64,000 nt of DNA from an uncultured Duodenibacillus sp. (lineage in GTDB: Bacteria > Pseudomonadota > Gammaproteobacteria > Burkholderiales > Burkholderiaceae_F): assembly GCA_944390715.1 (NCBI GenBank), contig CALXQS010000010.1:1-64000 (forward strand), read 5' to 3'. The notes below the pieces were generated by a model. That model did no database searches. It was not told the DNA's origin and saw only the letters and a program-made list of their open reading frames with translations. Every line of letters starts with the position of its first letter. Positions within the stretch are counted from its first letter, which is position 1. The position numbers were made by a program, and so were the translations under genes. Positions 40,346 through 62,572 of this stretch are shown here, piece after piece.

Positions 40346-41257
40346 ATGCACCGATGGGGATATTTCTTTACTTCAATCAAAGAAAGGAGAATGAACTTGT
40401 ACGCAAATCTCCATCGATTCGCGCACAGGCCTGCCGAAGCTGCCGAGACCTCCAGCTGCGACGCAAAATTTAAAAAATGTGCAGGAGCTCAAAGAAAACT
40501 CTCTGATGCAGAATTCTGGTCTGTGCTTGAATTCTTTTGTCGGACCGCTTTTCGTGCAATGAACATCACAGGCTTGTTCACCTGGGACCACGTTGGGCAA
40601 TTCCTCCAAAACTTCACTGACTTCAGGGTGTCGAACAAAACCCTTCGGCGCTGCTTCGAGCGGCACTGTCTGTGCCCAAATGCGCCTTATCTGCTCGTGC
40701 TTGCCAGACTTTGCGGCCAAGAGCTCGCGCAGGCAACCAAAAAGCTCATTGAAGCCTATCAGGGCGACCGCAACGCCAAGCAGGTATTCCTGCATCGGCG
40801 CGTCATCTACTTTGACGGGACCCGCGTGCGGCACGTCGTCGACCTGCCGCCTGAAGAGCTCGCTCGCCTAAACAGCCGCTCCAAGCTTATTTATCACTAC
40901 ACGTTCGTCTCGCCAAAAAGCGGACGGTCGTGCTTTTTTCAGACGACGACAAAGGATCAGAAAAAGCGTGAGTCTGAGCTGATGCGCGCAGTGTTCAGCC
41001 ATTACGCAGGGACTCAGCGCTTGTTGTTGATGCCCATCGCTCCCATCGGGTCGCTTGCCAAGGCAGGCGTTTTCGATGCCAAGGCGCAGCTTGAGCTCTA
41101 TGGCCAATGCAGCAAGCAGAACATGACGCTGATCGTTCACCCCCTGCCCTGCATCAATTTTGATGATGAAAGGCTCAAGCAATCTGAACTTTGGAAAAGC
41201 GTCTGGCCCTTTGATGAGAATTTCCCCCTCTCAAACCGCAAAAAGGCTAAGTCCTAA
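40346..41257 (+). CDS. Unknown 288-303 aa protein between traA and the autotransporter
   Basis: A hypothetical protein I do not recognise. No signal peptide or membrane helix is evident. The N-terminal half has helical stretches (SDAEFWSVLEFFCRTAFRAMNITGLF, LLVLARLCGQELAQATKKLIEAYQG), and the C-terminal half looks alpha/beta (KLIYHYTFVSPKSGRSCFFQTTTKDQKK). The ATG at 40346 gives 303 aa; an in-frame ATG at 40391 directly after AAAGGAGA, or a TTG at 40397 with better spacing, would give 286-288. It has its own promoter and a strong terminator. Its position, divergent from the transfer operon, would suit a regulator, but no DNA-binding motif can be shown. Confidence 0.6.
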   Translation: MHRWGYFFTSIKERRMNLYANLHRFAHRPAEAAETSSCDAKFKKCAGAQRKLSDAEFWSVLEFFCRTAFRAMNITGLFTWDHVGQFLQNFTDFRVSNKTLRRCFERHCLCPNAPYLLVLARLCGQELAQATKKLIEAYQGDRNAKQVFLHRRVIYFDGTRVRHVVDLPPEELARLNSRSKLIYHYTFVSPKSGRSCFFQTTTKDQKKRESELMRAVFSHYAGTQRLLLMPIAPIGSLAKAGVFDAKAQLELYGQCSKQNMTLIVHPLPCINFDDERLKQSELWKSVWPFDENFPLSNRKKAKS

Positions 41258-41328: not shown

Positions 41329-41367
41329 GGAGAGGTTGTGGCATGAATGGCCACAGCCCCTCCTTTT
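41329..41367 (+). terminator. Terminator of the orphan gene
   Basis: A 14-bp stem with one mismatch and one G-T pair: GGAGAGGTTGTGGC (41329-41342) with GGCCACAGCCCCTCC (41349-41363), followed by TTTT. Confidence 0.8.
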
Positions 41368-41460: not shown

Positions 41461-41492
41461 TTGACACGATGAGGGGGGGGGGGTGCTACTGT
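41461..41492 (+). promoter_or_regulatory. Phase-variable-type promoter with an 11-G run
   Basis: A perfect -35 TTGACA (41461-41466) and an extended -10, TGCTACTGT (41484-41492, hexamer TACTGT), are separated by 20 bp, of which 41473-41483 are 11 consecutive G. The autotransporter ATG is 36 bp downstream of the -10. Slippage of the G-run would change the -35/-10 spacing; about eight G would give the optimal 17 bp. Poly-G or poly-C tracts in this position switch porA in Neisseria and the fim genes in Bordetella. Confidence 0.7.
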
Positions 41493-41528
41493 AGGCAAAA
41501 TTCGTCCACTAACCCATGGAGTTCATCA

Positions 41529-44500
41529 ATGAACAGGACTTTCAAAGTTGTTTTCAACAAAGCCCGCGGCAGCTTGATGGTTGCCAATGAGGCGACTTCT
41601 TCGGTGCAAAAGAAGGGAGCCAAGACAATCATTGCTGCTGCGGCCGCTGTACTAATGACAGCATCAGCACAGGCTCAGACTGCTTCCCTTGAAACAACCA
41701 ACATCACCGAAGGTTGGTCAAACGTTACTTACAACGTTACTAACAAAAACGAAGACTACTTCGGGGGACAACATTCTTACAGCACCCATGTAACAGCATC
41801 AGACGTTGTTTTCTCAAACAATACCCTTCAGGCTCTGCAGTCGGAGCTCGGGACTGGTGCTGCTGACGCTCAGGGCGGCGCACTCTACCTGTATTCACAC
41901 GGAAATACCTATCACGACAATACCCTAAATACTTTCACGAACGTCAGATTTGAAAACAACTCTGTCGTTACCGAATCAAATCAGGGAAATCGTCCCGCTG
42001 CATACGGCGGCGCAGTTCTCATCAAAGGTGGCGAGACCACTTTCAAAAACACTGTATTCATCGGCAATACGGCTGAAGCAAAATCTGAGAAGCCCAATGC
42101 GACCAGCAATAGCGATAAAGGCGGCGGCTCCGCTGCAGGGGGCGCTATCTTTGCCGACTCAACCAGAAATAAGTTTAACTACAAATCTACTTTGAAATTC
42201 GTAGTAGATGTAGACGGCCTTGTCAATAGCGGCAACACGGTCAAGAGCGGCCTCGAGAAACCGTTTACAGATGGTCATGACACCAAAATTCCGACCGCTG
42301 GCGGATTCCTCTTCATGGATCGCGATGTCACTGCAAATTTTGAAATTGCTGAAAACGTCACGTACACGATCGGTACAAAAGACGCCTACAAAACCGATCC
42401 AAATATGGACAGCATTGCTAGTTCAGCTTATTTGAAAGGCGTCAAACACGACAATGTAGTCATCAACAAGCGTGGGGCCGGCACTCTGCTTATGCACGGA
42501 AGCCTCAACGACTACTTTGGCACCGTGAATGTCAATGCAGGCACAATGGAAGTCACATCAGATTGGGCCATCGCCAATACCGTGACAATAGATGGGGGAA
42601 CCTTGCGGCTTGCAAACATGAGCTTTACTTCGGTAAAGGATGCCGCAGAGTATGACGGAACTGCCGATGGAACTGCAGACGATGTTGTCGCCGATGTCGG
42701 CAAACTGGTTATTAATTCCGGCTCTGCCGTTTTGACTGGAAGTTTTGGCGACCTCAGCAAGGTTTCCATTGCTGAGAAGGGCACCCTCGCCTTTGAAGGC
42801 CAAACGATTGAAGCTGATGCTAATGGAGATGCTTCTTGGATTACCCTCGAGAAAAACAACAAAGGCGGCACAGTTGAAGTTGTCGGCGTCAATATCTCCA
42901 ATCAAATCTCAGGACAGACTGATGGTTCCTCGCAAGAAGGCGGAGCAGCCATCAACCTCAAAGGCAACTTTGCGGACGATGCGTCGCTTGGGGGTTCTTT
43001 AACGGTTAAAGATTCCACGTTCACTAAGAACACGACCGGCTTCAGAGGCGGCGCGATCTCAGTGAACAACACGTATTTTGCTTCTGCCGGCAACAAGGCC
43101 GTCGTGACCATTGAGAATTCCGAATTCAATGAAAACGAGGCCAACAACACCTCCAAAGACACCAACAGGATGGGCGGCGCTCTATTTATTCGCGGCGCTG
43201 ACACAAACATCATAAATACCAACTTCACCAGCAACCTAGTTACTGCCAATGATGGCTATGCCGAAGGCGGCGGCGCTCTCTACATCACGGGCTACGGCGC
43301 CAACGACGATCTCACGCAAACCGGCGGCTCCTATGTCGGCAACAAGGTTGCCGTCAGCGGAAAACTCGGTCTGATGAAACAGCAAGCACTCGGAGGCGGG
43401 GCTGTAATTCTTAAGGGAACGCAGGCTGTTTTCAATGACGTTTCGTTCAAAGACAACGTCGTTGACTACTCTGACTCTGATGGCAAAGTAGGCGTCATGG
43501 GCGGCGCAATTGTCGCCGACTACAGCACTGGCTCGCCCAACACAACTACAACTGGCGGCAAAGGCTTGGGATCCTCTGTCACTTTCAACATTTCTCAGAA
43601 TGCTGCCTACACCGGAAACACTGTCATTGGCAGCAATAACAGTGATCGGATTGACACGTTTGTCAACTCTGGCTATGTCGGTCCGGTTGTGGCCGGCGGC
43701 TTCTTGATGCTGCAGCGTGGTTCCACTGCTGAATTCAATATTGCCTATGGAGCTACCCTCACTCTTGGTACGGAAGGACAGACCAACCTCGACACCGACT
43801 CCATCGCAAGCGACCTGCCTAGCAAAGCGAAGTACAACACCGATGACGGCATTTCCACTCTTACCAAGAGCGGAGCCGGCACGCTGCTGATTCACAGCAC
43901 GCTCAACAAGTATTTCGGCACGACGACGGTTGCCGGAGGCACAATGGATGTGCGCACTGACTGGACGGCCGGCAATGCCATTACGGTCAAAAAAGGCGCG
44001 ACGCTTTTGGTCAAATCGCTCACGCTCGATACCCTTGACAACGCCTTCAACGCACAGACTGAGGACGGAGCAAGCGATGCTATCCATAGCGGCTTAGATA
44101 AAACGCAAGGCTCTGTCACTATTGATGCGGGCGGCCTTCTTACTGCAGGTGATCTGAAGGTCAATCAGGGCTCTGTTACTGCAAACGGCACACTGGAAGT
44201 TACCGGAAGTCTTGCCGGTGCAGAGGGCTCGGTCACGGTCAACGGCGGTACGCTCAAAACCGGTTCGGCAAACGTCTTTACTTTGGCAGAAAATGCCGGA
44301 GCATTGTTTGCGGCCGAACAAACTGCGCAGTTCGTCAAAGCCGATAACGAAGTTTCCGGCACCAACGCAACTCTGACATTGACATCAGGCACTGTTGCTC
44401 TTACCGATGAAGGTTTCTACACGAATTCCTCTCTGAGCGCGATGTCCAGCAAACTGGGCAATATGGTTCTGACGATTCTCAACGCGCAGGCCACGCTGCA

Positions 44501-46598
44501 GGAGGGTGAAACGTCTGTCGATCTCGTCGAGGGCGTTGTGCACAACGATGCAGCCGGCGTTGACAGCACGGTAACGTCATCTACCGACCCCGAAACGACC
44601 ACCGCAACAACGAACATTGAGACGACGACTGCCGGCGGCACGTCGCTTGAAGTCAGAGCCGATGCAGATCGAATCGGCGAAGCTGCTTCCGTTGACGTTG
44701 TCCTCCGCGCAGCAAATGCAACTGCCGGGAACCATGTCACCCTGGTTCTCAAAGGAACCGAAGAAGGCGGTGATCTTGTGACCGTCAAGGCCGAAAGTGC
44801 TGAGACCTCCGATCCGGCCAAGACCGTGGCAGTTCAAAACGTCACCATCCCTGAAAACGTTACGCTGCAGCTCGGCAGCGGTGCGAACACTGCAGAAACA
44901 AGCGGCTCGCTCAACAATGTCATCGTTGGCACTGTTGAGACTTCTACGGCCAAACTCTCCGTTCAGAACATGACTGCTCAGGTAGCCACGTTGAGCGGCA
45001 CGGGTACGGTTCTTGTCGGTTCAACAACCGGCACTGCTCAAAGCGGTGATGTGACTTCGAGCAACGGTTCTCGCGCCACTCTCAAGGTTGCCGAACTCGA
45101 CATGGACGGCGGCTTGATTTTTGTGGATCCCGCCTGGGACGACACGACGTCCCTGCAGTCCATCGCCAAGGCTTCGCACCTTGAAATCTCTCAGGTTGCG
45201 GGCGGCGTGCTCGATACCAAGCTCGTAGCCGGACAAAACGCGTTGATCACGATCGGCGCTACAACCGAACAAGCGACGGCCGCCTTCAACAACATTGTGG
45301 CGGCTTCGTCCGAAGTTGATGGCTGGGGCAAGGATGCCGTCAGCGCTGCCATCTATCTCGGCGAACGCGTTGTATTCGGCAGCAGCAACGGCGGCATTCT
45401 CGTGGACGGCTCTCTGAGCTCTGCTCCGCTCAAGAGCGATGTAGCTCAGGCCTTGACCGTCGCCAACGGCGGCATGGTCATGACCGACAGCTCGCTGCTT
45501 ACCGATGCGGCCCAGCCGCTTGTGGCCGGCACGCTGGCCTATAAGGGCACGACCGGCAATGCCTACATCGGCATTACCAATGCTCAGGAAACGACCTACT
45601 ACATCGCCGAATCGGTCACCGGTGCTGAAAACTTCAAGGTTGTCACCGACAACCCGTTCATCGTCGGCGGAACGCCTTCTGCTGACGGCACGATTCAGAC
45701 CTCAGTCGATGCTCAAAGCGGCCTTGCCGCTCTCTCCTCGACCGGTCTGCAGGCGATGACGCGCCGCGCCGATACGGTGCTCGCTCAGACCATCGCCGAC
45801 CGCACCTCGACCGACCAGGAACTCAAGGCCGGCCTCAACCTCTGGGTCGACGTCACGGGCGAAAACTATGAGTCCGACGATTTTGATCACGGCGGAGAGT
45901 TCACGGCCGACATGGGCTACGGCACGTTCGGCGGCGATGTTGCCTTCGGCAGCTTCACCGTTGGCGGCGCCTTCCAGTACGGCACGGGTTCGCTGAGAAG
46001 CTCGGTGTCGAACATCAAGAACGACATCGACAACTACGGCGTGTCGCTCTACGGCACCTACAAGGTGTCCGACGCCTTCAAGCTTGCTGCAGAACTCGCC
46101 TATGTCTGGGGTGAAAACGACATCACCTCGTCTCAGACGGCTCTCAATCAGAGCGTTGACACCGAGATGTACTCGTTCGGCCTCAGAGCCATGTACGAGG
46201 TCACGGCCGGCAACTTCAGCTTCGTGCCGAGCATCGGTCTGCGCGTCTCGCAGCTGTCGACCGACGAAATGAAGGTGGGCAACGTCAAGGTTGACGATCA
46301 GGATCAGACCCTCGTGCAGGTTCCGATCGCCTTGCGCATCAATGCTGCCGACTTCAACGCCGGCGGCTGGGTTGTGGCTCCGAGCATGAAGATTGCCTAT
46401 GTGCCGACCTTCGGCGACAAGGACATCGAAGTGCTGCACCACACCCAGGACGTGATCGATACGGCCCCGGTGCAGGCTGACATTGGTCTGCGCGTCGGCA
46501 AGGACAACATGCTCTTCAACGTGAACATGCTCCTTGGCTCCGGCGAGTACGGCACCTCGGCAATCGGTGGTAAAGTGGGCTTTAAGTACGTCTTCTAA
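41529..46598 (+). CDS. Type V autotransporter adhesin with extended signal peptide
   Basis: A 1689-aa surface protein. Residues 1-33 (MNRTFKVVFNKARGSLMVAN and onward) are an extended signal peptide region, followed by a hydrophobic segment with cleavage near AQA-Q (residue 49). The passenger has Pmp-like repeats with GGA-[ILVF] and F-x-x-N motifs and two clearly homologous modules: RGAGTLLMHGSLNDYFGTVNV and SGAGTLLIHSTLNKYFGTTTV mark the same place in each. A Thr/Ser-rich low-complexity stretch lies near 1020-1060. The beta-barrel occupies about the last 260 residues and ends GFKYVF with an aromatic terminus. The ATG at 41529 is chosen over 41469, which lies before the -10. The passenger DNA is poorer in GC than the barrel DNA, a mosaic pattern. 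Confidence 0.9.
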   Translation: MNRTFKVVFNKARGSLMVANEATSSVQKKGAKTIIAAAAAVLMTASAQAQTASLETTNITEGWSNVTYNVTNKNEDYFGGQHSYSTHVTASDVVFSNNTLQALQSELGTGAADAQGGALYLYSHGNTYHDNTLNTFTNVRFENNSVVTESNQGNRPAAYGGAVLIKGGETTFKNTVFIGNTAEAKSEKPNATSNSDKGGGSAAGGAIFADSTRNKFNYKSTLKFVVDVDGLVNSGNTVKSGLEKPFTDGHDTKIPTAGGFLFMDRDVTANFEIAENVTYTIGTKDAYKTDPNMDSIASSAYLKGVKHDNVVINKRGAGTLLMHGSLNDYFGTVNVNAGTMEVTSDWAIANTVTIDGGTLRLANMSFTSVKDAAEYDGTADGTADDVVADVGKLVINSGSAVLTGSFGDLSKVSIAEKGTLAFEGQTIEADANGDASWITLEKNNKGGTVEVVGVNISNQISGQTDGSSQEGGAAINLKGNFADDASLGGSLTVKDSTFTKNTTGFRGGAISVNNTYFASAGNKAVVTIENSEFNENEANNTSKDTNRMGGALFIRGADTNIINTNFTSNLVTANDGYAEGGGALYITGYGANDDLTQTGGSYVGNKVAVSGKLGLMKQQALGGGAVILKGTQAVFNDVSFKDNVVDYSDSDGKVGVMGGAIVADYSTGSPNTTTTGGKGLGSSVTFNISQNAAYTGNTVIGSNNSDRIDTFVNSGYVGPVVAGGFLMLQRGSTAEFNIAYGATLTLGTEGQTNLDTDSIASDLPSKAKYNTDDGISTLTKSGAGTLLIHSTLNKYFGTTTVAGGTMDVRTDWTAGNAITVKKGATLLVKSLTLDTLDNAFNAQTEDGASDAIHSGLDKTQGSVTIDAGGLLTAGDLKVNQGSVTANGTLEVTGSLAGAEGSVTVNGGTLKTGSANVFTLAENAGALFAAEQTAQFVKADNEVSGTNATLTLTSGTVALTDEGFYTNSSLSAMSSKLGNMVLTILNAQATLQEGETSVDLVEGVVHNDAAGVDSTVTSSTDPETTTATTNIETTTAGGTSLEVRADADRIGEAASVDVVLRAANATAGNHVTLVLKGTEEGGDLVTVKAESAETSDPAKTVAVQNVTIPENVTLQLGSGANTAETSGSLNNVIVGTVETSTAKLSVQNMTAQVATLSGTGTVLVGSTTGTAQSGDVTSSNGSRATLKVAELDMDGGLIFVDPAWDDTTSLQSIAKASHLEISQVAGGVLDTKLVAGQNALITIGATTEQATAAFNNIVAASSEVDGWGKDAVSAAIYLGERVVFGSSNGGILVDGSLSSAPLKSDVAQALTVANGGMVMTDSSLLTDAAQPLVAGTLAYKGTTGNAYIGITNAQETTYYIAESVTGAENFKVVTDNPFIVGGTPSADGTIQTSVDAQSGLAALSSTGLQAMTRRADTVLAQTIADRTSTDQELKAGLNLWVDVTGENYESDDFDHGGEFTADMGYGTFGGDVAFGSFTVGGAFQYGTGSLRSSVSNIKNDIDNYGVSLYGTYKVSDAFKLAAELAYVWGENDITSSQTALNQSVDTEMYSFGLRAMYEVTAGNFSFVPSIGLRVSQLSTDEMKVGNVKVDDQDQTLVQVPIALRINAADFNAGGWVVAPSMKIAYVPTFGDKDIEVLHHTQDVIDTAPVQADIGLRVGKDNMLFNVNMLLGSGEYGTSAIGGKVGFKYVF

Positions 46599-61281: not shown

Positions 61282-61692
61282 TCAAATCGAAAGGAGCTCT
61301 TCAGATTCGGCGTTTTGAGCCTTCTCTTTTTCCAATTCCTCGGCCTTTCTTCTTTCGATCCATTCGCGGCACGTGCTCACGGATACGCCTGTTTGGGCAG
61401 CAATTGCTCGAAGCGACAAACCTTGAGCGCGCAGCTCGCAAACCTTGTCGTGCGCTTGGCTGTCATAGCGATAGAGGTGTTGGGCAATGTCTTCGGTAAA
61501 TTTGCCTCGCCTGTACCTCCTTCCCCAGTCGCGCACCGTGTGCATCGACACGCCGGTCTCTTTGGCCACGAACTTGTAGCCACATCCCTGCGCAAATAAT
61601 TCTTTTGCTCTTTTTCTCTGATCCAGACTCGCACACTGTTCGGGGCGTGTGCACTTGAAAACATCTGTTTTCATCACCTGCTCGGCACTCAT
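61282..61692 (-). CDS. Orphan double helix-turn-helix protein (transposase-OrfA-like)
   Basis: A 136-aa protein with two HTH units: AKELFAQGCGYKFVAKETGVSMHTVRDWG and VCELRAQGLSLRAIAAQTGVSVSTCREWI, then an acidic/basic tail. The pattern matches the DNA-binding subunit (OrfA) of IS3-like elements. There is no OrfB and no inverted ends. A strong Shine-Dalgarno AGGGAGGAA precedes the ATG at 61692. It may be a domesticated regulator or a leftover of an insertion element. Two G-runs lie upstream. Confidence 0.6.
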   Translation of the reverse strand: MSAEQVMKTDVFKCTRPEQCASLDQRKRAKELFAQGCGYKFVAKETGVSMHTVRDWGRRYRRGKFTEDIAQHLYRYDSQAHDKVCELRAQGLSLRAIAAQTGVSVSTCREWIERRKAEELEKEKAQNAESEELLSI

Positions 61693-62572
61693 AAGTTCCT
61701 CCCTATTCTTTTTGTCTGAAGAGCCCCATGACTCTTAATTCGGAACTCTTGAGGATTCCAGCAAGAATAATGTCATTAATACCCCCCCCTCAGCAATACA
61801 GGCTATCCATTGCTGGGCTTGGCTTTTTTCCACGCTTAAGGAAAATAAAAGTGCTTATGGATGTTTGCTAGCCGCCCCCCCCCCATAAACAAAAAATACC
61901 TTTTAAGGGGTATGGGTACTTAATTCGTATTGATGACACCCCCAAAATGTTTGAAAACTCGAAAGTCTCAAAAGATTGGCTTAGGGGTTCGTCCTTGACG
62001 TTGCAAAAAAGAGAATTTGCGACAAAGGCTGCTTTTAAGAAGCTTTTTCTTTTAGAGCCTGCCTGCAGCCGCCAAGACGAGAAAGAAAAACTCTGAGCAC
62101 TGACTTGTTTCGGAATCAGCAAAGGATATTGAGCGCGCGGCACGTTCATTACGCGCCCAAAGGAGCTTGCAGAGGTCAGAAATCAACGCCCTTTCATGCT
62201 CTTAGTCGCTGGCTTCTGACAAGGCTTTGACTGCAAGCCGCCTGCGAGAAAGCCTTCCGTTATGAAGCCGGCTTCACGAGCCAAGCAAAGCGCGCGGCCG
62301 CGTCAATTTTTTTCTCAAATTGTTCTTAGGATTTGCGCCAGTGACAATTAAGACTGCCCCAAGGGCGAAAATCCTCAAAATTGCGCTGATATAAAGGTGC
62401 TTAGCCTCACTTTTGCAATCATGTGCTCACTGTCTAAGCAAAAATGCGTTTGTTTCTTTATTTTTAACTGCGTTGCTTAAAAAACAGTGGAAATTTTCTG
62501 CACTTTTTGCGACAGTTTTATGCGCCATCTTTTTCTCATACACTGCCCTTGCCGCAGGAGCATGAATGAACT
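61693..62572. other. Gene-free, AT-rich interval
   Basis: About 880 bp between the double-HTH gene and the MerR gene. It holds two C-runs (8 C at 61782-61789 and 10 C at 61875-61884, read as G-runs by the HTH gene's strand). The open frame in 61868-62149 shows no protein features. No repeats or RNA genes were seen. Confidence 0.6.
61782..61884 (-). promoter_or_regulatory. Two G-runs upstream of the double-HTH gene
   Basis: Read on the minus strand, G(8) at 61789-61782 lies about 90 bp and G(10) at 61884-61875 about 183 bp before the ATG. TTGTTT, 16 bases including the ten G, then TAGCAA is one promoter-like arrangement; the other tract is followed by TATTAATGACATTAT. Both are weaker than the autotransporter promoter. 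Confidence 0.35.

Follow-up and report, generated by a model that had tools for sequence, protein, structure and literature searches.

Does the run of eleven consecutive G residues in front of a 1689-aa autotransporter gene of an uncultured Duodenibacillus sp., a Sutterella-like gut bacterium, control whether that gene is transcribed? The window, by which is meant the whole 64,000-nt stretch of DNA that was analysed, was examined together with the remainder of its genome and with related genomes. The run is probably a random on/off volume switch of the surface-protein gene, and related gut bacteria reuse the poly-G promoter design at dozens of other surface-protein genes.

Promoter architecture and gene context

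The initial annotation placed TTGACA and an extended -10 element 20 bp apart around 11 consecutive G, an arrangement that is confirmed at 41461-41492. The features of the locus are listed below with their state in G005, a genome of another species of the same genus.

40346-41257, + strand: upstream gene, 303 aa, without Pfam family; its ortholog precedes the G005 autotransporter (58% identity)
41334-41358, + strand: hairpin resembling an intrinsic terminator, with a T-rich tail; it separates the upstream gene from the autotransporter, in a region that G005 partly conserves
41461-41466, + strand: -35 hexamer TTGACA, 6/6 match; kept in the G005 ortholog
41473-41483, + strand: G11 homopolymer, in which slippage is proposed; the G005 ortholog has G9
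41484-41492, + strand: extended -10 TGC-TACTGT (TGC 41484-41486, TACTGT 41487-41492); TGC-TAGCGT in the ortholog
41518-41521, + strand: GGAG as ribosome-binding site, with 7 nt between it and the ATG; the ortholog keeps GGAGTTC
41529-46598, + strand: 1689-aa type Va autotransporter with ESPR, PATR, Chlam_PMP-like passenger repeats and an autotransporter beta-domain

The sequence here reads AAAAATTTGACACGATGA, then G11, then TGCTACTGTAGGC, which gives a -35/-10 spacer of 6 + 11 + 3 = 20 bp, and the promoter-like unit ends 36 bp 5' of the autotransporter gene. Within the 271-bp intergenic region the TTGACA/TACTGT pair has the joint-best combined -35/-10 score and is the only pair with a perfect -35. 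TACTGT is a weak -10 that matches the consensus at 3/6 bases (the TA...T positions) and is helped by the extended TGn. The 5' leader is predicted to be ~30 nt long, with GGAG and the ATG at 41529 downstream of the promoter. Because the 20-bp spacer exceeds the usual 16-18 bp, the assembled state is predicted to be weak or OFF; a standard promoter scan, which takes spacers of 16-18 bp only, omits this promoter. The hairpin at 41334-41358 is consistent with an autotransporter that has its own promoter, although the count of such hairpins (1 found, mean 0.7 in shuffles) is within shuffle expectation.

The large surface protein that had been proposed downstream is borne out by the domains found. 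The ESPR, an extended signal peptide (E 1e-9), the C-terminal PF03797 domain (E 5e-29) and the aromatic end ...GFKYVF identify the product as a type Va autotransporter, and ESPR, PATR and beta-domain together predict that it is surface-exposed or secreted. PF03797 has 13 matches in the genome.

Conservation of the promoter ends in a second species

G005 retains the syntenic gene pair, and its autotransporter is 47% identical over 1195 aa. The intergenic alignment reveals that TTGACACG, a G9 run, TGCTAG, GGAGTTC and the ATG are all kept, with a spacer of 16 bp. The two spacers differ by 4 bp, 2 of which fall in the G run, and both promoter ends are conserved. The comparison set holds one genome per species, and G11 versus G9 is thus a between-species difference. 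A homopolymer between -35 and -10, the arrangement of the porA/fetA type, is present at the window locus and in the ortholog, and G11 lies in the hypermutable length range of about 8 or more G.

Homopolymeric runs in the same genome

A run as long as G11, the longest G/C run of the window, is not attributable to chance, since a first-order Markov model predicts only 0.006 G/C runs of at least 11 in 64 kb, where one is seen. Matches to G9 number 5, against a mean of 0.16 in shuffles. On the minus strand of the window, a G8 (61782-61789, then TATTAAT) and a G10 (61875-61884) lie less than 100 bp apart, with a small transposase-like ORF (61282-61692, minus) shortly downstream.

The genome (G000; 2.2 Mb in 46 contigs) was surveyed by pattern searches with backward controls and holds 12 runs of G>=9. 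TTGACA-N2-14-G7 occurs at 2 places in the 2.2 Mb, both before autotransporters, and the backward control gives 0. Autotransporter promoter spacers hold 3 of the 12 G>=9 runs, namely the window site and two others:

C30:7460-7469: TTGACA-aatcctcgt-G10-TAAATT, before a 792-aa protein, spacer 19 bp
C25:10388-10397: TTGCGT-aaatatcaa-G10-TAGTAT, before a 1269-aa protein, spacer 19 bp

The three promoters, with spacers of 20, 19 and 19 bp, are all predicted to be low as assembled if judged by the usual rules for sigma-70. The genome carries a MutS gene, and slippage and switching should therefore be moderate rather than mutator-like. We also note a G10 at 5904-5913 of contig C15 (locus L013), located in an acyltransferase-3-like gene, in the region that encodes the N-terminal part. 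The parts of this gene 5' and 3' of the run are in different frames in the assembly, and judged from its reading frames the gene resembles one under translational phase variation that is switched OFF.

Recurrence across the family

The relatives named here are Duodenibacillus and Candidatus Aphodousia MAGs. A search of all 67 genomes of the family for TTGACA-N2-14-G8 gave 26 distinct places, spread over three genera and 15 genomes, and 0 for the pattern read backward; five more matches lie in other families of the order. TANNNT follows the run directly at 10 of the 26 places (0.22 expected from slid positions) and within 0-3 nt at 14 (0.83 expected, likewise from slid positions). When no -35 is required, G8-TANNNT is found at 67 places as against about 14 backward. 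The poly-C version is not enriched (TTGACA then C8 at 3 places versus 5 backward), which places the G residues on the coding strand. Tract length and gap across the TTGACA sites show no significant anticorrelation (rho -0.27, p 0.34, n=14), so a compensated, constant sigma-70 spacer is not demonstrated.

The genes 3' of these TTGACA-G8 places comprise 13 autotransporters, 4 porins and 1 UDP-galactopyranose mutase, as assigned by Pfam match or, for G005, by orthology; the others are cut by contig ends or have no match. The UDP-galactopyranose mutase gene is preceded by the TTGACA-G run design at L133 (G008, contig C8), a hint that switching may extend to surface polysaccharide.

Two side observations concern other promoters. 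At L087 (G062, contig C90), two similar neighbouring promoters of the form TTGCAA-tttnct-Gn-TA carry G9 and G10, respectively, a tract-length difference inside one genome. The other is a further arrangement, a TAGGG-TTA-CCC-like dyad in which the CCC half has grown to C8-10 on the coding strand; such dyads lie upstream of ESPR autotransporters (L088, L084, L077, L082 and others), and one with expanded C lies upstream of a porin in the window's own genome (L010). TAGGGNNNC8 is found at 5 places in the family versus 0 backward.

A class of tracts preceded by FNR/Anr-type boxes

At several of the G8-TANNNT places that lack a consensus -35, TTGAYNNNNRTCAA, which is the FNR/Anr consensus, lies upstream. 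In the family, TTGAYNNNNRTCAA followed by G8 within 4-16 nt occurs at about 25 places in 13 genomes, and backward at 0. The order at these loci (L160, L164-L167, L170, L179, L180 and L200-L227, all in relatives) is an FNR/Anr-type box, G8-11, the -10 and then the autotransporter. Inspected by eye, 22 of the 23 readable places have an ESPR or a signal peptide at the start of the next ORF, and several of the downstream genes are autotransporters or ESPR proteins by Pfam. The -10 tends to fall 26-29 nt from the box centre despite variation in the components of this distance, with an SD of 1.7-2.0 compared with 3.7 for shuffled offsets (p about 0.002 or less). At FNR promoters, the class II activator position has the box centre at about -41.5, and the spacing in this class is near to that position. 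By analogy with poly-C and BvgA at fim, the tract would here tune the geometry of activator and polymerase. The class is a possible oxygen-sensing plus slippage switch.

These loci raise the question of whether the G11 tract also sets the geometry of an upstream activator site relative to the -10, in the manner of Bordetella fim, TTGACA being no true -35. The precedent of relatives with TTGAYNNNNRTCAA 5' of like runs, at a centre-to--10 distance near 27-28 nt, speaks for such a role. The window locus, in contrast, has TTGACACGATGAGG without a second half-site and at an ill-fitting distance, and an FNR box at this site was rejected; the locus is outside the FNR-box class. A search for FNR-type boxes found none at the G8 runs of G000, and TTGACA is a 6/6 match that is conserved in the ortholog. 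An activator-spacing role at the window locus is accordingly improbable.

Lower still stands the proposal that the run is a static, slowly changing low-complexity spacer of a promoter that is merely weak and in practice not phase-variable. The presence of MutS and the limitation of the comparison to one genome per species are compatible with it. However, runs of 8-19 G recur just 5' of the -10 at unrelated surface-protein promoters, with a strong strand and position bias that neutral low complexity does not explain, and a static spacer is quite unlikely. A translational switch, in which the run shifts the frame of a 1709-aa version initiated at an in-frame ATG (41469), is hardly credible: the reading frame that begins at 41469 continues without a stop across the run and into the gene, as also in G005 and G062, but 41469 lacks a ribosome-binding site and lies inside the promoter spacer, and the ESPR and a good ribosome-binding site place the start at 41529. 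Of the 26 TTGACA sites of the family, moreover, 18 have stops between run and start codon that rule out frameshift switching there, and on this ground the proposal was rejected.

Comparison with known phase-variable promoters

Phase variation through promoter spacing is known for porA and fetA in Neisseria (PMC5320596). As at the window locus, the homopolymer of Neisseria meningitidis porA and of gonococcal and meningococcal fetA is inside the -35/-10 spacer of a surface-protein gene, and in porA the G residues are also on the coding strand. Unlike these promoters, the window locus concerns a type Va autotransporter of a gut member of the Burkholderiales, with a 20-bp spacer and an extended -10.

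UspA1 of Moraxella catarrhalis is a trimeric autotransporter, and its tract lies downstream of the promoter, whereas the tract of the window lies in the spacer. Both loci have poly-G upstream of a type V secreted adhesin; for uspA1, the upstream tract is G8-12 and the mRNA level is length-dependent (PMC7302503).

Bordetella pertussis, with its fim2 and fim3 genes, belongs to the same bacterial order, and there, too, the spacing between upstream elements and the -10 is determined by a homopolymer. Poly-C tunes BvgA geometry at the fim promoters; fim3 is no longer expressed once a single C is lost, and tracts of different length coexist within clonal cultures (PMC10172299). fim2 and fim3 use BvgA and poly-C, in contrast to the consensus -35 without a recognised activator box at the window locus, and their closer analogue is the FNR-box class of the relatives.

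Proposed mechanism

Slippage-driven phase variation of the promoter, as suggested in the initial annotation, is supported by the promoter anatomy, the G005 ortholog, the recurrence in the family, the position of the -10 and the nature of the target genes. We consider it likely that G11 forms a spacer of variable length in a sigma-70 promoter driving the 1689-aa autotransporter, and that slippage reversibly alters transcription. Slipped-strand mispairing at replication would add or remove G residues, so that tract length would change in living populations. The changed G count would alter the -35 to -10 spacing and the helical phase, and autotransporter transcription would rise or fall, reversibly and in subpopulations, as with Neisseria porA and fetA. 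TTGACA and TACTGT would be the true determinants of the start; the assembled 20-bp state would be low or OFF, with the optimum near about three fewer G, and the extended TGn may give a graded rather than an all-or-none response.

Significance for Sutterella-like gut bacteria

Phase variation by simple sequence repeats (SSR) is known mainly from mucosal pathogens. The mechanism proposed for the window locus is itself already known, given the precedents of porA/fetA spacing and of length-dependent uspA1 expression. A literature search, with most subscription journals outside its range, found neither SSR phase variation described for Sutterella-like bacteria nor any homopolymer linked to FNR. What would be new, if confirmed, is the scale across the lineage together with the class that is coupled to FNR. 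We lean, by a little, towards the view that several genera of Sutterella-like gut commensals switch autotransporters and porins through a lineage-wide poly-G promoter phasome; in one of its classes the slippable tract would lie between an FNR/Anr-type box and the -10, with adhesins gated jointly by oxygen and random tract length. If this is true, a large part of what these common gut bacteria display at their surface is switched at random. Heterogeneity among strains and colonies would thereby be explained, and existing metagenomic reads would allow tract lengths to be read off directly. In the FNR-box class, a single promoter would combine the sensing of oxygen with stochastic switching.
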